From: a virus
IMG/VR virus record: IMGVR_UViG_3300042453_000366
Coordinates: 1 to 41,883 of that record
Strand: one strand, 5' to 3'
DNA length: 41,883 nucleotides
The translations under genes and the position numbers were made by a program. Under the pieces are notes generated by a model. The model worked only from the letters and a program-made list of their open reading frames with translations. It had not been told where the DNA came from and ran no database searches. Positions 5,348 to 41,883 of this stretch are shown piece after piece (position 1 is the stretch's first letter; the number at the start of each line of letters is the position of its first letter).

Positions 5348-5745
5348 TGGCGCGCGAAATCAAGGTCGGCGATATTGGCAACTACGCTGAGCAGCAGTTT
5401 GAAAAGCTGTTGCGCGTTGCTGTACTAGAGACCGACAGCCGCCTCAAGCAAGCCAGCCCTGTTGATACTGGCCGGTTTCGCGTTAGCTGGCAGGTAGGAG
5501 AGAATGCGGCGCCAGGCGGTGAGAAACCTGCAGGCACCTACAGCGGCACTCCGCAAATTGATCGCATCGGATACAGAGAAGAAAAGCTAGGCAACATCTA
5601 CTCAGTCCACAACAACCTGCCGTATGCAGAGCCTCTTGCCAATGGCAGCAGCAAACAAGCGCCGGCGGGTTGGGTGCAAGGCATTGCTAAAGACATCCAA
5701 GGCTTTGTGCGCGTCAACGCTGACCGCATCGGGAGGGAATCATGA
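5347..5745 (+). CDS. Neck / tail completion protein (HK97 gp10-like)
   Basis: A 132-residue protein of the HK97 gp10-like family that links connector and tail. Signatures are LKQASPVDTGRFRVSWQVG near residues 35-50 and SVHNNLPYAEPLANGSSKQA near residues 80-100, followed by an AGWV motif; together these are characteristic of phage neck proteins. Its start overlaps the TAA of head closure and its stop overlaps the tail-terminator ATG, fitting the usual closure-neck-terminator order. Confidence 0.8.
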   Translation: MAREIKVGDIGNYAEQQFEKLLRVAVLETDSRLKQASPVDTGRFRVSWQVGENAAPGGEKPAGTYSGTPQIDRIGYREEKLGNIYSVHNNLPYAEPLANGSSKQAPAGWVQGIAKDIQGFVRVNADRIGRES

Positions 5746-7503: not shown

Positions 7504-9537
7504 GTGTCGGTTGTCGCCAACGTTGCCATTAACGTCGACAGCCGCAACGCGGTTAGCAAGCTGCGCGAGGTTCAGTCACAGGCAGGCGCGACCGAGCGTG
7601 CGATTGGCGGCCTTGGCGCGGTTGTCGGTCGTCTAGCCGGTGCATTTGCAGCGTTCCAAGCCGCTAAGTTTGTTTTTGTCCAAGCAGCAGAAGTTGAAAG
7701 CCAACGCCGCAGTTTGGAGGTACTGACTGGCAGCGCTCAACGCGCTGGTCAGATCGTTAAAGAATTGCAAGACCTTGGCGCAGTCACGCCATTTACCAGC
7801 AGTGAGCTGATTGATTCAGCTAAAAGACTGCAAGCGTTTGGAGTTGAAACTAGCAAGGTTGTAGAGACTACCCGCAGGCTGGCAGATGTCAGCGGCGCAA
7901 CCGGCGCTGAGCTGCAAGGATTGGTCACTGCTTACGGGCAAGTGCAAGCCAAGGGCAGGTTGCAGGGCGAAGAACTACTGCAGTTTCAAGAACGTGGTGT
8001 TGCCCTGCAGCAGGTATTGCGCAAAGAGTACAACTTGAGTGGAGAGGAGTTTCAAAAAGCACTAGAAGGCGGACGGATTAGCGCCCAAGCCGTTGAAGCT
8101 GCGATTATCAAACTGACCGACGCCGGTGGTAAATACGCCAATGGCGCTATCGCTCAAAGCGATACGCTAAACGGCAAGCTCAGCACACTACAAGATTCAT
8201 TTCAACGGCTAGCACAAAACATTGGAACCTTCTTCGCGCCGGTCTTTAAGTTTTTGATTGATGGCGTAAATGCGCTTATTGAAAGGCTCAATACTGCGGG
8301 ACGCATTGGCGCTGAAGCAAGAGCATACGAAGAGGCAAATCGTCGCACAAGAACCCGCTTTGGGGCGCTGAGATATGCCAATCCTTTCGACCAAGAGGTA
8401 CAGCAATATCGTGAACGCCTGAGAAAATCATTGGTTACGGCAGAAATGGGCGCGGGCGGAGCCGCGGCTGCGCCTGTAATGACGGGAGGCGGTGGACTGC
8501 CGCCTCTGCTTGGTGCCACTGGCGGCAAAGGTCGCGGTGGTAAATCAGACGCAGAAAAAGCGGCCGAAAAAGCAGCGCGTGAAGCCGAAAGGGCCGCTGA
8601 AGCTGCTGCCAAAGAAAAGGCAAGAGTTGATGAGGTAATTCGTAGCCGTTTTGCTGAAGCTGAAATCATTAAACGTCAATCAGATTTACGCGATCGGATT
8701 AGTTTGGCAGAGCGAGCAAATGATGCTCAACTTGTGGTCAGGCTGCAAGGCGCACAAAAAGAGCTAGACATTCAACACCAATATGCAGAAGAGTTGGTCA
8801 AGGAAAAAGATCTAAACGCGCAAAAGGCAATCATCTACCAAGGACAAGTAGCCCTTGTTGCAAGTCAGCGCGATACACAGCGAGAGCTAAATAAACTCCA
8901 GTTAAAAGGAGATCAAGAACGTTTTGATGCGCTACAACAATACATTGAGCGTCAATACGAATTGAACACGGCAGTACAAAGCCAGCTTGAGTTGGCTGAC
9001 GGCATTGCGAATACTCTTGGGCAGGGAATTACGTCAGCTTTTGATGCTTTACTAACAGGCTCTGAGGCATGGGGCGACAGCCTTAAGCAGATAGCCTCCG
9101 GCGTATTGCTGGACATCGCAAAGCAACTGCTGCAGATCTTTGTTATTGAACAAGCCATAAACGCCTTGCGCGGGATCCTCACGCCATTTAGTGCTGCAAC
9201 ACCTATCGGCGCAGGTGGTGGTCAAATTGGAAGATTTGGCACCCTAGGTCCAAACTTTGGAATCCCGCAACGCGCTAAAGGTGGTCCTGTTACTGGCGGT
9301 ATGCCCTACCTTGTCGGCGAGCGCGGACCCGAGTTGTTCGTACCCGGACGCTCTGGTTCGATTGTGCCCAACCACGAGCTAGGCGGTAGCGGCGTAAACG
9401 TCGTCGTTAATGTGGACGCAAAGGGCACCAACGTTCAAGGTAACGACCAGCAAGGCAATCAACTTGGTCGTGCGGTATCTGCCGCCGTCCAAGCCGAACT
9501 CGTCAAACAAAAGCGCCCCGGAGGCTTGCTCGCATAA
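7504..9537 (+). CDS. Tape measure protein
   Basis: A 677-residue protein that sets tail length and fills the tube lumen. It starts at GTG 7504. Residues about 60-260 match the TP901-type tape-measure core, with segments ESQRRSLEVLTGSAQRAGQI, LQDLGAVTPFTSSELIDSAK and GELLQFQERGVAL-like helices. A long Ala/Lys/Glu coiled coil occupies roughly residues 350-480. A hydrophobic stretch (LDIAKQLLQIFVIEQAIN) lies near 535-555. The C-terminus has AKGGPVTGGMPYLVGERGPE, followed by an IVPNHEL motif typical of tape measures. The moderate length implies a fairly short siphoviral tail, which is an inference. Confidence 0.92.
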   Translation: MSVVANVAINVDSRNAVSKLREVQSQAGATERAIGGLGAVVGRLAGAFAAFQAAKFVFVQAAEVESQRRSLEVLTGSAQRAGQIVKELQDLGAVTPFTSSELIDSAKRLQAFGVETSKVVETTRRLADVSGATGAELQGLVTAYGQVQAKGRLQGEELLQFQERGVALQQVLRKEYNLSGEEFQKALEGGRISAQAVEAAIIKLTDAGGKYANGAIAQSDTLNGKLSTLQDSFQRLAQNIGTFFAPVFKFLIDGVNALIERLNTAGRIGAEARAYEEANRRTRTRFGALRYANPFDQEVQQYRERLRKSLVTAEMGAGGAAAAPVMTGGGGLPPLLGATGGKGRGGKSDAEKAAEKAAREAERAAEAAAKEKARVDEVIRSRFAEAEIIKRQSDLRDRISLAERANDAQLVVRLQGAQKELDIQHQYAEELVKEKDLNAQKAIIYQGQVALVASQRDTQRELNKLQLKGDQERFDALQQYIERQYELNTAVQSQLELADGIANTLGQGITSAFDALLTGSEAWGDSLKQIASGVLLDIAKQLLQIFVIEQAINALRGILTPFSAATPIGAGGGQIGRFGTLGPNFGIPQRAKGGPVTGGMPYLVGERGPELFVPGRSGSIVPNHELGGSGVNVVVNVDAKGTNVQGNDQQGNQLGRAVSAAVQAELVKQKRPGGLLA

Positions 9538-20122: not shown

Positions 20123-21049
20123 TTACACATTCCCGCTAGGCAGACCCTCCAGACGTTCCCGACTTTCCGTATTGTTGGTCCCAAGAGGTGTACCTGCCAG
20201 GGGATTACCTATCAGCATACGAAGGCGGTTGATACCGCGCCTTTGTATTTCGCACATGCGTGCACGCGATAGGCCCATGCGCTTTTCTAGGTCATTCCAT
20301 GGCACTGGATTGCGACTGTTGCGCGCGTAGATGATTTCACGAGTGCGATCATCTAAATGCTTATCGCAATAATCGCGCACTGTTTCAAGTTGCCAATCGT
20401 ATTCAACGTCGTATTGTCTTTTATCGGCAATGATGTCAAGAATGTTAGATGATTCATCTTGCGCAGGCTTATCAAGGCTTGTGACTCGATACGACTGCTG
20501 CAATGTGTCAGATATCACTTTAGGAGTTACATCAAGCACTGCGGCAAGCTCCGCCATGGTTGCTGTGCGTCCGTGCTCTTGCGCAAATGCCTGTGCTGTC
20601 TTGTTCAGCTTGATCAGCATTTCATGCACGCCAAGAGGCAGCCTGATGATTGGATCGTATTGAATCAATGCGCGGCCAATGGATTGACGAATCCACCAGT
20701 ACGCGTAGGTGGAGAATTTGTATCCACGGCTGTAGTCAAACAGCTCAACAGCGCGCGCAAGGCCGATGTTGCCCTCTTGGATCAAGTCCAGCATGTCAAG
20801 CGTCTGCGTGTTGCGTCTGCTGTACTTGCGTGCAACATGCACTACAAGCTGCAGGTTGGATTGCATGAACTTTTGCTGTGCGCGTTCGCCGCTGCGCAGT
20901 TCGCGGCGTTCTTGTGTCGTTAAAGGTCTTTCAAGATCCTTTAATTCTCTCCACTTTGCGACGCGGCGGCCAAGTTGTATCTCTTGTTGCGGTGTTAAAA
21001 GTGGATACCGCGCGATACTGTTCAAGTAGTCGCCAATAGCGTCAGACAT
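20123..21049 (-). CDS. Phage-encoded RNA polymerase sigma factor, sigma70 family (cyanobacterial type)
   Basis: A 308-residue sigma factor from ATG 21049; a longer frame to 21100 has no homologous content. Region 1.2 is IGDYLNSIARYPLLTPQQEI. Region 2 is MQSNLQLVVHVARKY, MLDLIQEGNIGLARAVELFD and GYKFSTYAYWWIRQSIGRAL, nearly canonical for core binding and -10 melting. Region 3 follows IRLPLGVHEMLIKLN. Region 4 (about 230-285) is shorter and diverged, with SRARMCEIQRRGINRLR as recognition helix. It would redirect host RNA polymerase to phage promoters. The overall pattern resembles cyanobacterial primary or group 2 factors, so host capture is likely. It is last in the leftward unit. Confidence 0.93.
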   Translation of the reverse strand: MSDAIGDYLNSIARYPLLTPQQEIQLGRRVAKWRELKDLERPLTTQERRELRSGERAQQKFMQSNLQLVVHVARKYSRRNTQTLDMLDLIQEGNIGLARAVELFDYSRGYKFSTYAYWWIRQSIGRALIQYDPIIRLPLGVHEMLIKLNKTAQAFAQEHGRTATMAELAAVLDVTPKVISDTLQQSYRVTSLDKPAQDESSNILDIIADKRQYDVEYDWQLETVRDYCDKHLDDRTREIIYARNSRNPVPWNDLEKRMGLSRARMCEIQRRGINRLRMLIGNPLAGTPLGTNNTESRERLEGLPSGNV

Positions 21050-21071
21050 GGAAAATCCGTTAGTACATACA

Positions 21072-21308
21072 ATGGAAGCACAATTCCACGGTGCTGCCAA
21101 TGCCGCGCAGCTACGTGCGTTACATGCTGCAGCAGATTGGGGCGGACTGTTGGAATATGCGCTGCTGCTAGCCGAGCAAGAAGCAAGCCAGCGGTCTCAG
21201 ATCCACTGGCTTGTGCAGGAGGCATCGGCAGCGTTGCGGACTGGACTAGAGCAGTGGCACCTAGATGCCGCTGAGGAACTGCTTCGATGCCGTCGTCGTG
21301 AGATCTGA
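21072..21308 (+). CDS. Small helical protein on the opposite strand, unknown
   Basis: A 78-residue frame from ATG 21072 (an earlier ATG at 21048 shares its CATG with the sigma start). It is predicted all-helical: LRALHAAADWGGLLEYALLL, then SQIHWLVQEASAALRTGLEQ and an Arg-rich end. It fills the 210-base gap between the sigma and dCTP deaminase genes and overlaps the latter by 48 bases tail to tail. The minus-strand frame in the same gap looks like a shadow. It would need its own promoter within a leftward operon. Confidence 0.5.
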   Translation: MEAQFHGAANAAQLRALHAAADWGGLLEYALLLAEQEASQRSQIHWLVQEASAALRTGLEQWHLDAAEELLRCRRREI

Positions 21309-25682: not shown

Positions 25683-27029
25683 TCATCCGCCGTAACGCTT
25701 CGCCAGTCTGGCCTGATAGACCCTCTCGGCCCATCCGCGCTTGTAGCCGCGTTGCTGCGCTAGCTCGCGGAGTGCATCCAGGTCGCGGGCTGAGGATTGC
25801 TCACGCCGCTTAGCCACTGCCATCTCCACCAGCTCCCCATCAACCTGCTGCAACTCGCGGCGTTCCTGCGGCGCAAACACATGACCGCATTCGCGGCACA
25901 CCTGTACCGCACTGGCGCTGGTGGCGAAGCACTGCGGGCACACCTTGACGCTGGGTGCCTGCTCGCGGTCGCGCTTTTTAAGGCCATCTAGGGTCCAGTC
26001 TCGTGGTTCTAAGTGGTGTCCCATCCTGAGCGTGTTGCCGACGTGGTCGAGCACCACTGCGCGCTTGCCGGGTTGCGGGCGCAGGCATCGGCCGATCATC
26101 TGTAGGTGCAGCGCCACGCTTGCCGTAGGCCGCAGCAGGATGCAACCGCCGACTGATGGCACGTCCACGCCTTCACCGATCAATGCGCAACTGATCAGCA
26201 CCTTGAGCTTGCCGGTGCCTAGGTCCTGCAGCAGCTGCCGCCGCTGCGCGGTATCCATGCTGCCGTCAATACTTGCAGCTGAGATGCCTGCTGACTGGAA
26301 GAGTGCAGCCACTGCCTCAGCGTGTGCCACGCTGCAGCAGAAGGCAATTGCCGTCTGGCCTGGCAGGTGCTTGCGGTAGTGGCCAAGACAATCACCCATG
26401 ATCGTGCCGACGCGCTGCTCAGCCTCCTTGGGGTCGAAGTCACCCATCCGCTTGCGTAGGCCGGTTGAGTCAAAGCCCGGCGGTGCCAGCACCTTGGCAG
26501 CCGCAAGAAATCCGGCATCCGTGAGCTGCTGCGCTGTTGGGCCTTGCACCATGGATTGGTAGTGCTCGCCTAGGCCGCGGCCATCCGAGCGGATCGGTGT
26601 TGCCGTTACACCCAGCAGCTTGGCGTTATGGAAGTGCTGAACCGTCTTGGCCCACGTGCCAGCCGTGGTGTGGTGTGCCTCATCCACCACTAGGAGCTGG
26701 AAGAAATCACGCGGCAACAGGTGCAGCCGGCGAGCAACGGTTTGCACGCTGGCAATCTGCACGGCATGGCTGAGATCCATGCTGCGGCCAGCACTGATAC
26801 GGCCATGCGGCATTGGCATAGCGCGGCTGGCCTGATCCAGCAGCTCTTGCCGGTGCACAAGCACCAGTACGCGGTTGCCCTTGATGCTGGCCTGCTCTGC
26901 GATGTAGCTAAAGCACACCGTCTTGCCGCCTCCGGTCGGAAGCACTGCAAGCACAGATTTATGCCCTAGCTGATACTGCAGTCGAATGTCGTTGATGAGT
27001 TGCTGTTGGTAGGGGCGGAGCTGCATCAC
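25683..27029 (-). CDS. DEAH-box superfamily 2 helicase with zinc ribbon
   Basis: A 448-residue SF2 helicase. Motif I LPTGGGKT (30-37), motif II VVDEAH (114-119), motif III TATP near 140, motif IV-like AIAFCCSVAHAEAVAALFQ, and motif VI QMIGRCLRP near 310. A C-terminal four-Cys zinc ribbon (CPQC and CREC, about 372-389) precedes a basic helical tail. Gene order next to VRR-NUC suggests joint work on branched DNA. The start overlaps the stop of the helicase-methyltransferase gene by four bases. Replication-fork or recombination helicase. Confidence 0.92.
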   Translation of the reverse strand: MMQLRPYQQQLINDIRLQYQLGHKSVLAVLPTGGGKTVCFSYIAEQASIKGNRVLVLVHRQELLDQASRAMPMPHGRISAGRSMDLSHAVQIASVQTVARRLHLLPRDFFQLLVVDEAHHTTAGTWAKTVQHFHNAKLLGVTATPIRSDGRGLGEHYQSMVQGPTAQQLTDAGFLAAAKVLAPPGFDSTGLRKRMGDFDPKEAEQRVGTIMGDCLGHYRKHLPGQTAIAFCCSVAHAEAVAALFQSAGISAASIDGSMDTAQRRQLLQDLGTGKLKVLISCALIGEGVDVPSVGGCILLRPTASVALHLQMIGRCLRPQPGKRAVVLDHVGNTLRMGHHLEPRDWTLDGLKKRDREQAPSVKVCPQCFATSASAVQVCRECGHVFAPQERRELQQVDGELVEMAVAKRREQSSARDLDALRELAQQRGYKRGWAERVYQARLAKRYGG

Positions 27030-29284
27030 ACCAGCACTCCTTGACGATTGCTGGCCACTTCAGTCAGGTTCTTGACCGCGCAGTTGAAATACGAAGGCTT
27101 CAGCTCAAAGCCGACAAATTGGCGCCCGGCTTGGATGCTGCAGTAGCCCTCGCTGCCGATGCCGGCGAACGGGCTGAGCACCACGTCGCCAGGGTTGCTC
27201 CATAGCTGCAGGCCGCGGCGGATCACCTCTAGCTGCAGCGGGCAGATGTGACGCTCATCCTCATTGGCGCGTGCGCTGCGGTATTGCAGCGTGTCTGATG
27301 GGTTGATGTCCATCCATACAGGGCTGGCGTAGCGCTGCCAGATGTTGATCGAGTCCTTAATCGGGTCGCCGCTTTTGGATGGTGGATTCTCACCAGCAAA
27401 CTCAGTGAACGGGCCAGCCACTGGCTCGGAGTTGTCGCCCAGCTTGCGCACGGTCACGAGGTAGTCAGGGATGCCTTGGCGACTGAGCGCTGAATCCTTA
27501 CGCACTTGCTTATGCAGCAGGCCGATTGCCTTGGTGCGCTGCATTGCGGTGACTGGATCCTTCCAGATGCACACCTCGCTATGGAATACAAAACCAGCAG
27601 CCTGGAAGATGCGCAGCATGTCACCGCGGAAATCCTTCACGCCGATGAAGCCATCGCGCTCTTTGCTGCTAGGCAGATTCATGCAGTGGAAGCTGATCAG
27701 CCTGCCGGGCATCATCACGCGGTGCAGCTCACTGGCAAGAAATCCGAAGTGATCAAAAAACTCCTGTTCAGTGCGGCTGTTGCCCATATCGCGGTCGCTG
27801 TTGCTGTAGGTGTAGAGCGACGCAAACGGTGGGCTGAAAATGCTGTAGTGGATGGAATTGCTGTCGAGTTGCTTGATGCTTTCCACGCAGTCACCCATAT
27901 ACATATCCCATCCATCACCGGACTTGTGCTCGGTGATGTGCGGTGCCACTTGGCGTTGGATCTTCTTGAGTTGTTCCATGGTTTGTTGCTTCATGATTTC
28001 AACCATTGATTGGGCCATCTGGATGCTGTCCGCTTCTTTGCGGCGGATGTTGTCGATCACGCGGCCTTCTGCCACGTCGTAGATGATGTGAGCGTTGACA
28101 GGCTGCTCTTGCCCGAATCGCCAGCAGCGGCGGATGGCTTGATAGAACGCCTCGTAGCTGTGCGACAGACCAACAAATGCGACGTTGTGGCACCGCTGGA
28201 AGTTGAGGCCAAAACCAAAGATGCTCGGCTTGCTGACCAGTACGCGGATCTTGCCGTCTTGGAAGTCAATGGCAGCCTGCCGCTTGTGGTCGTCAGAATC
28301 CGAGCCTGACACCTCAACCGCGCCATTGATAGCTGCAGTCAGCGCCTTGCTTTCATCGTTGAGATCACACCAGATCAACCACTGCTCGGTGCTGCTGTTG
28401 GCGAGCTTGGCAGCGGCTGCAACGCGGAGAGCGAGCGATGCCTTGCGCACCTTGCGTTGATCGTTAAGCGTGCGAGCCTCCATGGCAAATAGCGCCATCT
28501 GCCCGTCATCCCCTGCAGTTGCCTCGCGTGGCGTCTCAACCGTGCAGTCTTGGATCTGCAGCGCCGGCAGGATGAAGTTGCCATCGTCGTAGCCAAGGTC
28601 TGATGGCTTGCGGATGGTCACCGCCCAGCTGCAGACCCACTCCCAGAACTTATCCCGCGCGTGACCCTTAAGCCGCCACTTGGCAGTGTCGCCGCCGTCA
28701 TGCACGAAGAACATGGCCAGCATCTCAGTGCGGGTCATGACGCCGATGAACTCAGCATGGTTGCCGAGCTCCATATGGTCATTCGGTGCTGGTGTGGCTG
28801 AGCAGGCCAGCCGGTATGGAGTGAGGCTGAACGACTCGATGATCTGGTTGCGGATCTTGCCGGTGTATGCCTTGAGGATGCTGCTCTCATCCAGCACCAC
28901 GCCATCGAATGCGGATGGGTCGAAGTGGCTCAGCTTCTCGTAGTTGGTGATCGTGATGCCGGGCTTGACCTCGGCCTGCGTGGCGGCAAAGCTGCAGCTG
29001 ATGCCGAACTTGCTGCCCTCGCGCACGGTCTGGTGTGCAACCGCAAGCGGTGCCAGCACTAGCACGTTGGCGCCGGTCTCTTGATGCACCTGATGCGCCC
29101 ACTCAAGCTGCATGGCGGTTTTGCCCATGCCGCAGTCGGCCCAGATGCAGAACTTGCCGACACGGCAAGCCATGGTCACGATGTCCCGCTGAAACGGGAA
29201 CAGCGGCGCTGTGAACTGCTGCGGGTCAAATCCGGCAACAGGTGCTGCAGTGGATTTGGAAGCTAGGAAGTCTTGGTATGTCAT
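27026..29284 (-). CDS. SNF2-like helicase fused to DNA methyltransferase
   Basis: A 752-residue fusion. Residues about 25-440 form a SNF2-type SF2 motor: PFQRDIVTMACRVGKFCIWA, Walker A-like ADCGMGKT (49-56), VVLDESSILK near 130, CSATPAPND near 160, and motif VI YQAIRRCWRFGQ near 390. Residues about 465-740 form a class beta methyltransferase: YMGDCVESIKQLDSNSIHY, motif IV SPPF, then motif I VVLSPFAGIGSEG near 705 and FVGFELKPSYFNCA. SPPF suggests N4-cytosine modification, but adenine is possible. No partner restriction gene is present. It may modify phage DNA during translocation and protect it from host nucleases. Confidence 0.9.
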   Translation of the reverse strand: MTYQDFLASKSTAAPVAGFDPQQFTAPLFPFQRDIVTMACRVGKFCIWADCGMGKTAMQLEWAHQVHQETGANVLVLAPLAVAHQTVREGSKFGISCSFAATQAEVKPGITITNYEKLSHFDPSAFDGVVLDESSILKAYTGKIRNQIIESFSLTPYRLACSATPAPNDHMELGNHAEFIGVMTRTEMLAMFFVHDGGDTAKWRLKGHARDKFWEWVCSWAVTIRKPSDLGYDDGNFILPALQIQDCTVETPREATAGDDGQMALFAMEARTLNDQRKVRKASLALRVAAAAKLANSSTEQWLIWCDLNDESKALTAAINGAVEVSGSDSDDHKRQAAIDFQDGKIRVLVSKPSIFGFGLNFQRCHNVAFVGLSHSYEAFYQAIRRCWRFGQEQPVNAHIIYDVAEGRVIDNIRRKEADSIQMAQSMVEIMKQQTMEQLKKIQRQVAPHITEHKSGDGWDMYMGDCVESIKQLDSNSIHYSIFSPPFASLYTYSNSDRDMGNSRTEQEFFDHFGFLASELHRVMMPGRLISFHCMNLPSSKERDGFIGVKDFRGDMLRIFQAAGFVFHSEVCIWKDPVTAMQRTKAIGLLHKQVRKDSALSRQGIPDYLVTVRKLGDNSEPVAGPFTEFAGENPPSKSGDPIKDSINIWQRYASPVWMDINPSDTLQYRSARANEDERHICPLQLEVIRRGLQLWSNPGDVVLSPFAGIGSEGYCSIQAGRQFVGFELKPSYFNCAVKNLTEVASNRQGVLV

Positions 29285-29523: not shown

Positions 29524-29570
29524 CTTGCGCACCCTAGCAGCATCCGGTAGACTGCGCAAGCATCCGCTAG
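29524..29570. promoter_or_regulatory. Overlapping divergent promoters with operator-like repeats
   Basis: Perfect inverted repeats CTTGCGCA (29524-29531) and TGCGCAAG (29553-29560) provide two -35 boxes facing each other. Rightward: TTGCGC 29525-29530, 17-base spacer, TAGACT 29548-29553. Leftward: TTGCGC 29559-29554, 17-base spacer, TAGGGT 29536-29531. Superimposed is a 12-base direct repeat AGCATCCG-G/C-TAG at 29539-29550 and 29559-29570 (period 20). Promoters are inferred from spacing and are not perfect consensus. The two units cannot easily fire together, so this looks like a switch, possibly controlled by the adjacent RHH protein. Confidence 0.6.
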
Positions 29571-29575
29571 GAACC

Positions 29576-29740
29576 GTGACCTTATCTCATCCATTGGCGG
29601 TCCAATTCACCGCAGAACAGCTCGCGTGGCTGGATAGTCGCCGTGTCGCTGGCCTGTCCCGATCCGCCACGCTTCGGCTGGTGGTCGAGGAAGCCATGCG
29701 CCTTCATCGCGATGGCATCCTGCCAGCCACGAACCGATGA
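29576..29740 (+). CDS. Ribbon-helix-helix (CopG-like) protein, first rightward gene
   Basis: A 54-residue protein from GTG 29576. The longer open frame upstream crosses the promoter region and antisense gene and is rejected. The RHH pattern is a strand PLAVQFTAEQLAWLDSRRVA followed by GLSRSATLRLVVEEAMRL. Such proteins bind as dimers to short repeats, and repeats of that type lie 6-52 bases before this gene, so autoregulation is likely. Four-base overlap with the primase-helicase start. Confidence 0.72.
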   Translation: MTLSHPLAVQFTAEQLAWLDSRRVAGLSRSATLRLVVEEAMRLHRDGILPATNR

Positions 29741-32118
29741 AGGAAATTGATTTTGACGAAGCCCGTCGGTTTATTGCCTTACTCGGCAAACCGGCAGGCA
29801 CCATCCGCCTGCGCGCTTTTTTGCACCGACTACATCCCGACAAGCCCAATGACAAAGGCCGCAAAGGTGGCGCTCGTAAGCCGCTGATCAAGCAGTGGCA
29901 AGCCGAAGGCCGCGGCGTTTACGTGGTAGTCAACGACGGCGGGGACACCAACGCTGAAATCACAGCCTGCCGTGCGTTCTTTGCTGAGTGGGATGATCGC
30001 CCGCGCGAATGGCAACTCACCGCATGGCAGGAGTTAGGGCTGCCGGAGCCAACATTTCAGATCAATACCGGCGGCAAATCCATCCACAGCTATTGGGTGC
30101 TGGCTGATCCGATCACGCCATCCCATTGGGAGCTGGTGCAAGGGCGGCTGCTTGATTACTGCGATGCAGACCGCAGCATCAAGAACTCATCCCGCGTGAT
30201 GCGGCTACCTGGCAGCTACTACGCCGAAGCCGATGGCAGCCTTGGTGAGATGTGCCGCATGGTCACCAGCGCGGGCCATCGCTACAGCGTCTCCGATATT
30301 GAAGCCGTTCTACCCAATGAGGCTTACTACCAACACGAAAAGCCGGCGCAGCACTACGTAGAACCCACAGAGCGTGGCATTGATGAGATCCGCGAAGCGC
30401 TTGCCGTAATACCACCTCGCGTGCCAGGGTCCGGCACCTATCACATCTACCGCAATATTTTCTGGGGCTTGATCCAAGCCTGCGGTAGCGCTGAGCAGGC
30501 CATTGACTTGATGCAGCAGCACAGCCCGCAATGGCAAGGGCTGCAGCAGATCGCCACATCAGGCGGTGACCGCATCGGTGCTGGGACGTTTTGGTACTGG
30601 GCGCGTCATCACGGTTGGCGGCCAGCGCTGCCGATGCTTGCGCCGCAGCGTCACCGCCTAGAGGCTGCTGGTGGTGATGATGATGGCGAAGTAGTCAACC
30701 TGCAGCTTTACGACAAGTCCGGCACCGAATGGTTAGAGCTTGCAGTTGAGTACGTGTTCTGCCATCCCCGCGAGCGCTGGATTTGCGTTGATGGCGTACT
30801 GCACTGCTGGAGCGGCACCCATTATCAATCCAAGCCCGACGAAGAGCTAGCGCCAAAGCTCGCGGCATTCCTCTCCATGCTGCATGTCATCAACCAGCAA
30901 GGCGCCACCACATACCCATGGCGCAGGCCGCGTTACGTGGATGAAGCACTGCAATGGATGAGGCGACTGCTTAAGCCTGTTGAGGTCAACCCAGCCAATG
31001 CCATCAACTGCCGCAATGGTGTGGTGGCGTGGGCATGGTCTGGCCGCAAGCTGGATCTGACCTTTACACAGCACAGCCCTGCAGTTGCCTTCACCTACGT
31101 CACTGCTTACGACTACGACCCTGAAGCCAATGCCCAGCACCTATGGCGGTTGCTTGAAGCCGTAGAGCCTGGCGACCGCGACACGTTGCAACGCATTCTC
31201 GGCAGTGGGCTTGACCTCATCAAATACCGCGCCACACGAGGCAGGCCACGTGCTGTGCTGATGATCGGCGAAGGCAGCAACGGTAAAGACACCATCCGCA
31301 CTGCACTGCGGGATACTCTTGGCAGTCGTAATTTCACGAGCTGCACGCTTGCTGACTTCCGTCAATACGACCAGGGCCGTAAGTTTCCAATCGCGCCATT
31401 ACGCGGCGCCTCAGTGAACTGGTCAAGCGAAAACTCGCAGTTTGTCAGTATTGACAACCTCCAGTCATTAAAGGCTGCCATCAGTGGCGAGGAACTGTCA
31501 TATGAACTCAAGGGAGTGCAGGAGTCACAGTTTGTTCCGTCGTCTTTGTTTGTGTTCAACCTCAACAAGGATCCATCGCTAACTGGCGAGCAGGCTGCCA
31601 TTGAAACACGGTTTCATGTATTCAAATTCCGTAAGACCTTCATGGCGACGCCTACTGAACCCAACCACCTTCAAGCAGATCCAAAGCTAAAGGACGATCC
31701 CGACTTCATCCAGCAGCAAATATGTCCAGCATTCCTGAATTGGTTGCTTGAAGGCATGGCGCTCAGCATTGCAGATGGCATTGATTACACAACTGGAAGC
31801 CAAGCAATGCAGGACGTTAGAAGAGCCAGCTGCCATCTTTGGGACTTCTGTGACTCTATCGGACTCACCTATGAAGAGGGCGCCCAAGTATCAACAAAGC
31901 GCGTATGGGATGCATTGCAGGAGTGGTATCGAGAGGAGGGTTATTTGGACGATAAAGGTAGGTGGTTGATGGACCCGCCAAGTGATCGCACCGTCAAGGC
32001 GCCGCGGCTTTTGGTGCCGGCATTGCGCCAGATCTTCCCGAAACTTGCGTCCGACAGAGGCTCCGGCAAGTCCCGTGAGCGTCTCATCTCGGGTCTCAGG
32101 CTGGACTTGTGGGCGTGA
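29737..32118 (+). CDS. Primase-polymerase fused to D5-type superfamily 3 helicase
   Basis: A 793-residue replication protein. The N-terminal archaeo-eukaryotic-type primase region (about 10-200) has FFAEWDDRPREW with Asp86/Asp87 and TGGKSIHSYWVL with His117, as in RepB/PrimPol primases. Residues about 330-470 fit a D5 N-terminal domain (YKSGTEWLELAVEYVF-like, WICVDGVLHCW, AINCRNGVV). The SF3 helicase has Walker A IGEGSNGKDT near 507-516, then GASVNWSSENSQF and a sensor region FVFNLNKDPSL. It can prime and unwind; no other replicative helicase or polymerase was found. An iteron cluster follows immediately. Confidence 0.9.
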   Translation: MKEIDFDEARRFIALLGKPAGTIRLRAFLHRLHPDKPNDKGRKGGARKPLIKQWQAEGRGVYVVVNDGGDTNAEITACRAFFAEWDDRPREWQLTAWQELGLPEPTFQINTGGKSIHSYWVLADPITPSHWELVQGRLLDYCDADRSIKNSSRVMRLPGSYYAEADGSLGEMCRMVTSAGHRYSVSDIEAVLPNEAYYQHEKPAQHYVEPTERGIDEIREALAVIPPRVPGSGTYHIYRNIFWGLIQACGSAEQAIDLMQQHSPQWQGLQQIATSGGDRIGAGTFWYWARHHGWRPALPMLAPQRHRLEAAGGDDDGEVVNLQLYDKSGTEWLELAVEYVFCHPRERWICVDGVLHCWSGTHYQSKPDEELAPKLAAFLSMLHVINQQGATTYPWRRPRYVDEALQWMRRLLKPVEVNPANAINCRNGVVAWAWSGRKLDLTFTQHSPAVAFTYVTAYDYDPEANAQHLWRLLEAVEPGDRDTLQRILGSGLDLIKYRATRGRPRAVLMIGEGSNGKDTIRTALRDTLGSRNFTSCTLADFRQYDQGRKFPIAPLRGASVNWSSENSQFVSIDNLQSLKAAISGEELSYELKGVQESQFVPSSLFVFNLNKDPSLTGEQAAIETRFHVFKFRKTFMATPTEPNHLQADPKLKDDPDFIQQQICPAFLNWLLEGMALSIADGIDYTTGSQAMQDVRRASCHLWDFCDSIGLTYEEGAQVSTKRVWDALQEWYREEGYLDDKGRWLMDPPSDRTVKAPRLLVPALRQIFPKLASDRGSGKSRERLISGLRLDLWA

Positions 32119-32403
32119 TGTCGGACGCAAGTTGCGTCCGGGTCGGACGCAAGTCGGACGCAAATTTCGGACGCAAAAACCCTGTCTCTATCTACCTTTT
32201 CTCTTGTTCGGACGCAAATAGGGGTAAATCAAGTCAGGTATGGAAACAAGAGGGGAATGTAACGGCGTGAACATAACACACATATAGGGGGGGTAAGGAG
32301 AAACCCCGTTTTTGCGTCCTCCCTTGGTATGACTGGTTTTTTTGCGTCCGACTTGCGTCCGCTTGCGTCCGAACCCAGTCGTGGGCAGGGTTTTTGCGTC
32401 CGA
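32045..32403. repeat. Twelve-copy iteron array, candidate replication origin
   Basis: The decamer TCGGACGCAA (or complement TTGCGTCCGA, allowing changes at the last two bases) occurs twelve times. Forward: 32121, 32143, 32154, 32167, 32208. Reverse: 32045, 32132, 32312, 32342, 32353, 32363, 32394 (first base). Neighbouring copies are often 10-13 bases apart, close to one DNA turn. Forward copies cluster left, reverse copies right, around a less repeated core of about 95 bases (32218-32311). Copies at 32121 and 32132 make a 19-base palindrome. Position after the primase-helicase suggests an origin; position before an RHH gene also allows an operator or partition site. Confidence 0.8.
32201..32311. 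other. Core between iteron clusters, with inverted repeat and G-tract hairpin
   Basis: No gene is supported in 32119-32434. The core contains an eight-base inverted repeat CTCTTGTT (32201-32208) and AACAAGAG (32245-32252), which would loop out the iteron at 32208, and an A/T-richer block around 32262-32286. A G7 tract (32287-32293) can pair with CCCC (32304-32307) just before a T run. This could be the melting element of an origin, with a weak rightward terminator at its end. Interpretation is inferred from layout. Confidence 0.45.
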
Positions 32404-32434
32404 CCTACCATTTGCACCACCACCACCACCAGAA

Positions 32435-32716
32435 ATGCCCGAAATCAAGATCAATGTCACCGCTGATGACCTGGCGCGGCTGAACGCTGAAGCAGCGGCG
32501 CATGGGATGCCACGTGCGCATCTGATCCGGCAGCGTGCTTTGAGCGGTGGGGTTGTTGCAGGATTGACCACGGCGGCGTACCATGCGCTGGTGGCGGACG
32601 CCTGCGCCTTCATGCGTGGTGACCTGAACCGCCGACACGTTGAAACTCTCGTTGCATATGTCATCGCTCATTCACATTCCAGCCAAGCAGCAACCGGTGA
32701 TCAATCGGCTGCATGA
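32435..32716 (+). CDS. Ribbon-helix-helix-type protein next to the iterons
   Basis: A 93-residue protein from ATG 32435; the frame upstream runs into the repeats and is not coding. The N-terminal part IKINVTADDLARLNAEAAAH, then GMPRAHLIRQRALSGG, fits an RHH DNA-binding fold. The C-terminal half is helical (TTAAYHALVADACAFMRGDL). A CAC trinucleotide run (32416-32430) lies in its leader. The nearest iteron is 31 bases upstream, so it may bind them. RHH proteins bind tandem repeats in plasmid partition and copy-control systems, which supports but does not prove that role. Confidence 0.7.
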   Translation: MPEIKINVTADDLARLNAEAAAHGMPRAHLIRQRALSGGVVAGLTTAAYHALVADACAFMRGDLNRRHVETLVAYVIAHSHSSQAATGDQSAA

Positions 32717-32867
32717 CACCATGACCCAAGCAGTGGCGTATGCCGCAGCCATTGCCGACAACGCCATTGATGACGGCGTACCGCTACCCATGGAACTTGT
32801 GGATAGCTTCGCCGTTGATTACGAACGCATCATCACCAGCCTCGTCACTGCCGCCACCGCCAAATGA
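32658..32867 (+). CDS. Small protein between the RHH and beta clamp genes
   Basis: A 69-residue protein from ATG 32658, overlapping the RHH gene by 59 bases; a start at ATG 32721 would avoid the overlap and leave 48 residues. The likely body is MTQAVAYAAAIADNAIDDGV followed by PLPMELVDSFAVDYERIITS. Helical, acidic, no known motif. ATGA overlap with the beta clamp start suggests coupling. Confidence 0.6.
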   Translation: MSSLIHIPAKQQPVINRLHDTMTQAVAYAAAIADNAIDDGVPLPMELVDSFAVDYERIITSLVTAATAK

Positions 32868-33904
32868 AAGCCGTTACCTGCCAAGCAGATCTCGATCACG
32901 CGCTACGCACCATTGCGCCAGCCGTTGGCCATCGCAGTAGCCATCCGATCCTTGATTGCTGCCTGATCCAAGCCGCTAGTGGCGTCATGACCATCACCGG
33001 CTTCAACCTTGACCTCGGCATCACCGTCACCATCCCAGCCGCAGTGGACACCGATGGCGCTGTAGCGCTGCCGTATCGGCTGCTGGCTGGCCTTGTGAGC
33101 CGCTTTGACGGCGACGAGGCTCTAACCCTCGCAGATGGCGCTCTGACCGCTTCTGCGGGCTCCTACGGGCTTGCGGCGGCTGATGCGGCGGATTACCCCG
33201 CGCTGCCGGTTGTAGACGCTGCTACGAGCGAGCTGCACCTATCCGCTGGAATCCGTGCCTGCATGGCAGCTGCCAGCACCGACGCCAGCAAGCAGATGCT
33301 CCAAGGCATCCACCTCGGCAGCGGCCACATGGAAGCCACTGACGGGCATCGCTTGATGCGTTATGCCATTGACCTGCCAGATGGCCTAGACCTCGTGCTG
33401 CCCGCCAGCACCATGCGCTTGCTGCAGGATCGCGTGGTCACCATCGCCGTTGCCAAAGGCCAAGCCGTGATTGACGCAGGTGACGGCATCACCATCTACA
33501 GCCGCATCATGGACGGCACTTACCCAGACGTGGCCAAGCTGGTACCCGCTGAGTTCAAAAGCACCATCACCGCCGACCGTCGCCGCCTGACTCGCGCCTT
33601 GGAGCGTGTCGCCATCATCGCCGATGCGCACAATTCCATCGTTAAGCTCGTAGCCGGTAGCGGTGGACTTGAGATCACCGCTGAAGCCGATGCCAACAAT
33701 GGCCGCGAGCTGTTAGCCGTGGAAGGCACCGCTAATGGCGCATGGGCATTCAATGTCCACTACCTGCTAGATGGCATCAAGGCGTTCAAGCCCGCTGAAG
33801 CCATCACATTCCACGCGAATACGACAACCACACCCGTCGTGTTGACACCTAGTGGCGTGGACGGTGTAACTTATCTGGTAATGCCTGTGCAAATCCGCAA
33901 CTAA
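32864..33904 (+). CDS. dnaN: DNA polymerase III beta sliding clamp
   Basis: A 346-residue bacterial-type clamp. It keeps the three-domain pattern: a first domain starting MKAVTCQADLDHALRTIAPA with HPILDCCLI, a second with ASKQMLQGIHLGSGHMEATD and GHRLMRYAIDLP, and a third from KSTITADRRRLTRALERVAI to the C-terminal YLVMPVQIRN, which matches the VMPM-x-x ending of DnaN. It encircles DNA and tethers polymerase. No polymerase gene is present, so it should recruit host Pol III, or other clamp-binding proteins. Somewhat shorter than host DnaN. Confidence 0.92.
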   Translation: MKAVTCQADLDHALRTIAPAVGHRSSHPILDCCLIQAASGVMTITGFNLDLGITVTIPAAVDTDGAVALPYRLLAGLVSRFDGDEALTLADGALTASAGSYGLAAADAADYPALPVVDAATSELHLSAGIRACMAAASTDASKQMLQGIHLGSGHMEATDGHRLMRYAIDLPDGLDLVLPASTMRLLQDRVVTIAVAKGQAVIDAGDGITIYSRIMDGTYPDVAKLVPAEFKSTITADRRRLTRALERVAIIADAHNSIVKLVAGSGGLEITAEADANNGRELLAVEGTANGAWAFNVHYLLDGIKAFKPAEAITFHANTTTTPVVLTPSGVDGVTYLVMPVQIRN

Positions 33905-41138: not shown

Positions 41139-41883
41139 ATGGCGACCCTTCGCTCTGACATCATCATCCCCGAGGTATTTACGCCTTACGTCATTGAGCA
41201 AACCACTCAGCGTGATGCCTTCCTGGCTTCCGGTGTGGTGCAGCCTCTGGCGGAGCTGAATGCCACCGAGGGCGGTGATTTCATCAACGTTCCCTTCTGG
41301 AAAGCAAACCTTTCCGGCGATTTCGAGGTGCTGACCGATAGCAGCAGCCTCACCCCTGGCAAGATCCAAGCTGACAAGCAAGTTGGCGTGATCCTGCACC
41401 GTGGCCGTGCTTTTGAATCGCGCGACCTGGCAGCCCTTGCTGCTGGTTCCGATCCTATGGCCGCCATCGGCGCCAAGATCGCTGACTACATCGCTAACCA
41501 GCGCCAGAAGGATCTGCTGTCCTGCCTTGGCGGCGTGTTCGGTAGCTTGGGATCTACCTCCAGCTCTGCTGCCTTCTTTGGTCTGACCATTGATGGCGAA
41601 TCTGGTGATACCCCCACCACGCTGAGCCCCCGTCACGTTGCCGAAGCCCGCAGCCTGCTGGGCGATCAAGGCGACAAGCTGGCCGCTGTTGCCATGCACT
41701 CCAAGGTCTATTACGACCTGGTTGAGCGCAAGGCAATCGACTACGTGACCGAGGCAGATGCACGTCTGACTTCTAGCGTCACTGATTTCGTTGGCGGCAG
41801 CATTGCTGGTGCCTATGGTCCCGTGAGCGTGCCGACCTACATGGGTCTGCGCGTGATCGTGTCTGACGATGTGCAGACCGATG
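41139..41883 (+). CDS. Major capsid protein, N-terminal part (continues at window start)
   Basis: Encodes the first 248 of 343 residues of the head shell protein. It starts at ATG 41139, with GAGG seven bases upstream. The N-terminus MATLRSDIIIPEVFTPYVIE and the following VVQPLAELNATEGGDFINVP are typical of phage coat proteins, as are FESRDLAALAAGSDPMAAIG and VAMHSKVYYDLVERKAIDYV. It is truncated by the window edge, not by a mutation: the frame continues at base 1 because the two ends overlap by 21 bases. Confidence 0.9.
   Translation, partial: MATLRSDIIIPEVFTPYVIEQTTQRDAFLASGVVQPLAELNATEGGDFINVPFWKANLSGDFEVLTDSSSLTPGKIQADKQVGVILHRGRAFESRDLAALAAGSDPMAAIGAKIADYIANQRQKDLLSCLGGVFGSLGSTSSSAAFFGLTIDGESGDTPTTLSPRHVAEARSLLGDQGDKLAAVAMHSKVYYDLVERKAIDYVTEADARLTSSVTDFVGGSIAGAYGPVSVPTYMGLRVIVSDDVQTD
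41863..41883. repeat. 21-base terminal direct repeat identical to bases 1-21
   Basis: The last 21 bases equal the first 21 exactly, and the capsid reading frame is continuous across the join. This is the pattern of an assembly closed on itself with a short overlap rather than a biological terminal repeat, which would normally be longer and not inside the capsid gene. Unique length is then 41,862 bp. Confidence 0.92.

Follow-up and report, generated by a model that had tools for sequence, protein, structure and literature searches.

A conserved two-armed iteron array at the 3′ end of a PrimPol-helicase gene: a probable replication origin in picocyanobacterial siphoviruses

Introduction

Is a cluster of short repeats at the end of a phage primase-helicase gene the place where replication starts and, if so, which protein reads it? 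This question is raised by a viral record of 41,883 nucleotides (IMG/VR IMGVR_UViG_3300042453_000366, analysed over its whole length and called here the window), in which copies of the decamer TCGGACGCAA gather around the 3′ end of a gene for a PrimPol-D5 helicase. An earlier note, made from the letters alone, had taken them for a nucleoprotein origin or a partition centromere. Behind it stands a more general question, namely how a self-loading primase-helicase changes its origin word without losing replication in the meantime.

In satellite phage P4, the alpha protein unites primase, helicase and origin-binding domain and works on an iteron origin, with ori and crr as two distinct sites. P4 alpha has been compared with systems of this kind, its primase being of the bacterial Toprim type (PMC4234260). 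The origins of SaPI Rep proteins lie directly downstream of rep, with iterons that the C-terminal domain recognises, and SaPI5 Rep is itself a primase-helicase; likewise, the C-terminal domain of SCCmec Cch2 binds iterons directly downstream of its gene (PMC7581432).

Results

The record represents a whole genome that closes into a circle of about 41,862 bp: its ends are identical over 21 bp (1-21 and 41863-41883) and a 346-aa frame spans the join, at the position expected for the capsid. Compared with the large terminases of Synechococcus phages S-H1 and KBS-S-2A and of Prochlorococcus phages MED4-117 and MED4-184, that of the window shows 75-80% identity, and on sequence similarity the virus is assigned to the picocyanobacterial siphoviruses as a group, not to an individual host. 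Genes follow each other in the order PrimPol-D5, array, RHH, beta clamp and large terminase, the last lying 1.8 kb downstream of the array.

29737-32118, + strand: PrimPol-D5 helicase gene, 793 aa (Pfam D5_N and DUF5906; PHROG primases)
32435-32716, + strand: RHH (NikA-like) gene, neighbour of the array, undetected in many array-bearing relatives
32864-33904, + strand: DNA polymerase III beta clamp gene (Pfam and PHROGs)

The beta clamp is probably a partner in replication. As the proteins scanned, which cover the small ORFs only in part, included no recognisable DNA polymerase, PrimPol itself may be the replicative polymerase of this phage, as proposed for the PrimPol of cyanophage S-2L (PMC8065100).

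Several other genes of the window deserve mention. A second small RHH-like protein, recognised by neither Pfam nor PHROGs, is encoded directly upstream of PrimPol (29570-29740) and stands beside PrimPol in most relatives. An AbrB-like regulator (PF14250; 35602-35922) lies between the terminase and portal genes. On the minus strand, this siphovirus carries a sigma-70-type factor with regions 1.2 to 4 (20123-21100) and a fusion of an SNF2/DEAD-type helicase with an N6/N4 DNA methyltransferase (27026-29284), the latter partly replaced in relatives. Rfam gave no match in the window.

The array consists of twelve copies of TCGGACGCAA within 359 bp (32045-32403), nine exact, two with one mismatch and one with two, disposed around a core as follows.

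32045-32054, − strand: exact iteron inside the PrimPol gene, codons L770-D773
32121-32130, + strand: exact iteron, left arm
32132-32141, − strand: iteron with one mismatch, left arm, inverted pair with the copy at 32121
32143-32152, + strand: exact iteron, left arm
32154-32163, + strand: exact iteron, left arm
32167-32176, + strand: exact iteron, left arm
32208-32217, + strand: exact iteron, left arm, nearest the core
32218-32311, no strand: repeat-free core, 94 bp, 46% G+C, candidate melting region
32281-32292, + strand: core element CATATAGGGGGG, conserved among relatives
32312-32321, − strand: iteron with two mismatches, right arm, nearest the core
32342-32351, − strand: exact iteron, right arm
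32353-32362, − strand: iteron with one mismatch, right arm
32363-32372, − strand: exact iteron, right arm
32394-32403, − strand: exact iteron, right arm

Five forward and two reverse copies thus make up the left side, and five reverse copies the right. This agrees with the earlier note, which had counted twelve copies in about 360 bases, forward in the left arm and reverse in the right, around a repeat-free core of about 95 bases. It had also placed the array between the PrimPol-D5 and RHH genes, which is right as to gene context, but the first copy lies within the PrimPol gene.

No exact copy of TCGGACGCAA exists outside the array in the 41,883-bp record. When up to two mismatches are allowed, the whole record holds 41 matches against 42.4 expected, which is the chance level, so the remarkable part is clustering and exactness, not total number. 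No other 10-mer of the record clusters locally as densely as TCGGACGCAA (nine in 400 bp); in 60 first-order Markov simulations of the genome the highest count of any 10-mer per 400 bp was two (57 runs) or three (three runs).

Spacing is restricted too. Across 28 layouts, neighbours in the same arm stand only 10-13, 21-22, 29-32, 40-44 or 50-52 bp apart, and mean phase coherence peaks near 10.75 bp in the left arm and near 10.25 bp in the right; these layouts share descent, so that the values describe a conserved spacing and not many independent trials. Taken alone, the window has a phased right arm (equalled by 0.5% of random arrangements) and a weakly phased left arm (8.6%).

The core, at 46% G+C, compares with 57% for its 1-kb segment, and core G+C was below that of the locus in all 13 loci sampled. 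It contains TATAGGGG, which occurs once in the window and has a similar counterpart in the cores of 66 of 73 relatives; the CATATAGGGGGG core element is possibly a priming or melting signal. The window has a single TTWTNCACA DnaA box (21356) and the array none, unlike what a DnaA-dependent iteron plasmid origin would carry. Detrended GC skew has its minimum near 18.2 kb and no extremum at the array.

Scanning viral contigs with PrimPol gave 75 relatives, 66 of them with a readable 3′ end, and later additions brought the set to about 80. An array follows the PrimPol-D5 gene in all 66, built on CGGACGCAA in 60 and on CGAAGGCAA in six. In the CGGACGCAA relatives, whose PrimPol is 68-100% identical to that of the window, each locus carries 6-12 exact copies (six in an incomplete locus), located between about 71 bp upstream and about 300 bp downstream of the end of the PrimPol match and almost nowhere else in the locus. 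The six CGAAGGCAA relatives (class B; PrimPol 60-67% identical) keep the layout of the window. Further away, the array motif of L155 (PrimPol 59%) is CGGAGGCAA and L157 (56%) has a degenerate array. Inward two-arm layout and helical spacing are therefore kept in relatives despite the change of motif.

The motif classes do not mix. Class A loci contain 198 copies of GGACGCAA and none of GAAGGCAA, class B loci none of GGACGCAA and 73 of GAAGGCAA: the repeats of a locus change in concert. On a finer scale, the first base of the decamer is G in every copy of 31 loci, the in-gene one included; in the remaining loci the in-gene copy has T and the intergenic copies mostly T (mostly G in L138 and L142).

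PrimPol is the constant companion of the array. For the RHH gene, the clamp, the small pre-terminase gene and the terminase alike, some array-bearing relatives have an unrelated gene or none that was detected, but every array-bearing relative has PrimPol; these relatives were found via PrimPol, and an independent scan for the DNA motif agreed for every two-arm contig. Because neighbours vary while PrimPol stays, and because unrelated primase-helicases have other motifs, the repeat motif goes with the initiator. Eleven contigs with a tandem decamer and without PrimPol (e.g. L085, L088, L093, L096, L107, L123) lack the two-arm layout. Distant blastn searches of the array region against the phage collection gave no match, no PrimPol relative was confirmed in bacterial genomes, and MED4-184 and KBS-S-2A, whose terminases are similar, show neither PrimPol nor a clear array in the gaps inspected. 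As a separate observation, L113, a contig without recognised PrimPol, has a different TCGGACGCAA cluster with GGACG-rich repeats (5573-5727), and L102 similarly has a GGACG-rich repeat cluster of other make-up.

The copy at 32045 falls in codons L770-D773, which in our model form the start of the C-terminal wing of PrimPol. In 25 class A proteins, 198 invariant residues have fourfold-degenerate codons, and the third base is constant throughout for just two of these, A771 and S772. The in-gene copy is thus under selection as DNA and belongs to the functional array. Since its codons lie where the wing begins, a different motif at this place also means a different protein: residue 773 is D or E in T-type proteins and A in G-type proteins.

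PrimPol comprises an AEP PrimPol domain (about 1-190) matching 6zp9, the S-2L PP-N190 structure, a D5_N/SF3-type helicase (about 345-690) and a C-terminal winged-helix-like domain (about 700-793). Full separation of class A from the other proteins is seen in 10.7% of the columns over residues 691-793, as against 2.6, 3.8 and 2.1% in the other three regions; three of the 11 columns concerned (769, 771 and neighbours) coincide with the in-gene iteron or lie next to it and are confounded by it. Relative to the window, the L059 lineage of class B has a helicase that is 81% identical but a C-terminal domain at only 44%.

The T/G switches of the first base go together with a wing loop that differs in length by one residue: it reads ASAR-x-GKSR in the G-type and AS[DE]R-x-x-[GS]K[ST]R, one residue longer, in the T-type. 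A tree of residues 1-690 requires at least two changes of the T/G state (support of the relevant nodes 82-100%), and wing type and motif agree on each side of both switches; since at least two switches are needed, the pairing of wing and motif is not one inherited event. Joint inheritance or recombination of the C-terminal domain and the adjacent array as a unit could account for part of this co-switching. The array is thus associated with the PrimPol C-terminal domain, and the co-variation suggests that this domain sets iteron specificity.

Structural modelling is suggestive only of a winged helix in this domain. The model looks winged-helix-like at moderate quality (mean pLDDT 69); among known structures the RFX winged helix 1dp7 comes closest (probability 0.98, E 0.15), no match reached E ≤ 0.001, and a PDB sequence search with the C-terminal profile gave no meaningful match. 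The full-length PrimPol model was poor and unusable in the C-terminal half.

A second initiator occupies the same chassis. S-H1 (L134) and L205 have homologous RHH, clamp and terminase genes, but a Zn-ribbon/TOPRIM primase-helicase. In the same place, these two and many S-H1-type relatives carry inward two-arm arrays of other motifs, for example CGTTAGGA, CGTAAGAA, CGTGAGAA and CGTTACAA, although some members of the family have no clear array. The two systems are alike in the place of the array, its inward layout and, for S-H1 and L205, the neighbouring genes; they differ in primase, in motif and in the C-terminal region, for which hhalign found no similarity between PrimPol and S-H1-type proteins. 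Among S-H1-type phages (L134, L158-L217, L205), the motif at the primase-helicase 3′ end varies strongly between relatives, and 12 of 37 cores contain the CATATAGGGGGG-like core element, in the opposite orientation.

Discussion

The locus combines what at sequence level is a self-loading helicase initiator, iterons directly downstream and a lower-melting region. We consider it likely that the array at 32045-32403 is a replication origin read by the winged-helix-like C-terminal domain of PrimPol, in the style of SaPI Rep and P4 alpha. The C-terminal domain would bind the decamers as duplex, nearly on one helix face per arm; helicase assemblies would form on the two inward-facing arms, facing the core; the lower-G+C core between them would melt; and the PrimPol domain would prime there and perhaps extend DNA with the phage beta clamp. 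This course of binding, melting and priming, like the direction of replication and its start at the array, is proposed by analogy with the C-terminal domains of SaPI Rep and Cch2 on their downstream iterons.

The origin named in the earlier note is thereby well supported by comparison: the array goes with PrimPol and the C-terminal domain of this protein, its helical spacing is retained, and it is present even where RHH is lost, its activity as an origin being what we infer. Two checks proposed with it, copy density over the genome and persistence of the repeats in relatives, did not refute it; cumulative GC skew was uninformative for the array.

Origin arrays often also serve as operators. 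An array that is only an operator, through which PrimPol or another phage protein controls transcription of RHH, clamp and terminase or of PrimPol itself while replication starts elsewhere, would suit its position between co-directional genes. We find this unlikely: a search of 31900-32600 for sigma-70-like promoters gave none (those of cyanophages may be of another kind), the array stays where downstream genes differ or are absent, and an operator would not need as many as twelve sites, set at helical intervals in two arms that face inward across a core of lower G+C.

The arms could also act together, as a large single-stranded hairpin in which the two-arm structure and not the single decamer is recognised. 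In four relatives, the predicted folding of the region is indeed much stronger than that of shuffled DNA (z -6.0, -7.4, -5.1 and -6.8), and the PrimPol-helicase of pRN1 uses a stem-loop downstream of its gene (PMC4234260). Yet the spacings of one arm do not mirror those of the other, and from relative to relative each arm varies on its own, so pairing of the arms follows from repeat identity and the hairpin is taken as a by-product; the in-gene copy and the helical spacing also suggest duplex recognition. A hairpin origin of the pRN1/BIP-1 type appears, on this evidence, rather improbable.

RHH proteins bind short repeated operators, and the RHH gene (32435-32716) adjoins the array, which could make of it a partition centromere or operator bound by this protein. 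Its gene is however undetected in array-bearing L023, L024, L056, L058, L086, L138-L142, L144, L145 and the L060 group, and S-H1 has a homologous RHH protein (44%) together with another motif and another primase. A scan of the proteins of the larger ORFs brought up no ParA/ParM-like ATPase. The centromere put forward in the earlier note is not supported, and we give very little credit to an RHH-bound site of either sort. A packaging (pac) site for a terminase subunit, for which the terminase gene 1.8 kb away might speak, is the least credible reading, as the array stays where the terminase and its small neighbour are unrelated or undetected (L086, L112, L144, L145) and S-H1, whose TerL is 80% identical, lacks this motif beside its primase.

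With the array read as an origin served by PrimPol, its working principle is already known from SaPI and P4 alpha, and pRN1 offers a PrimPol with a downstream stem-loop origin. SaPI Rep, SaPI5 Rep and Cch2 share with the present system a self-loading helicase initiator, a D5-type primase-helicase fusion in SaPI5 Rep, and downstream iterons. SaPI is however an integrated island, while here a 41.9-kb phage has an S-2L-type AEP, decamers in two inverted arms and one iteron selected as DNA inside the initiator gene. P4 alpha differs by its Toprim-type primase and by its repeat sequence. pRN1 ORF904 and phage BIP-1 are alike in joining an AEP PrimPol, an SF3 helicase and a C-terminal winged helix, with the origin downstream (PMC4234260), but what has been proposed for them is a large stem-loop, and they yielded no iterons, whereas the window has clear iterons that are also hairpin-capable. 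The present system stands apart through its PrimPol of the S-2L type, its pair of inverted arms, an iteron placed within the gene of the initiator, and a series of switches in which motif and domain match; in the open-access literature on cyanophage iterons and replication origins we found no description of these arrays.

At somewhat less than even confidence, we would go further and propose that cyanosiphoviruses share an interchangeable cassette of initiator plus two-arm origin, in which unrelated primases would come with their own arrays, the iterons would be rewritten together with the domain that reads them and, in the PrimPol version, the iteron embedded in the wing would couple change of protein and change of origin. 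These phages thereby offer natural material for the general question raised above: several initiators that are related yet each served by an iteron set of its own, two cases in which one base and one wing residue switch together, and two unrelated initiators on one chassis. Such initiator-array pairs could be used to learn start-site recognition and the binding code of D5-type C-terminal domains.

The array also supplies a candidate origin for PrimPol phages with an S-2L-related primase; we found no S-2L start site described. Cyanophage S-2L has a homologous PrimPol domain (38% over about 290 aa; 6zp9), but its helicase half is VapE-like and it has no TCGGACGCAA array. Its genome (L133) carries eight copies of GGCAC in about 230 bp after the PrimPol gene (8216-8442), perhaps a degenerate origin array.
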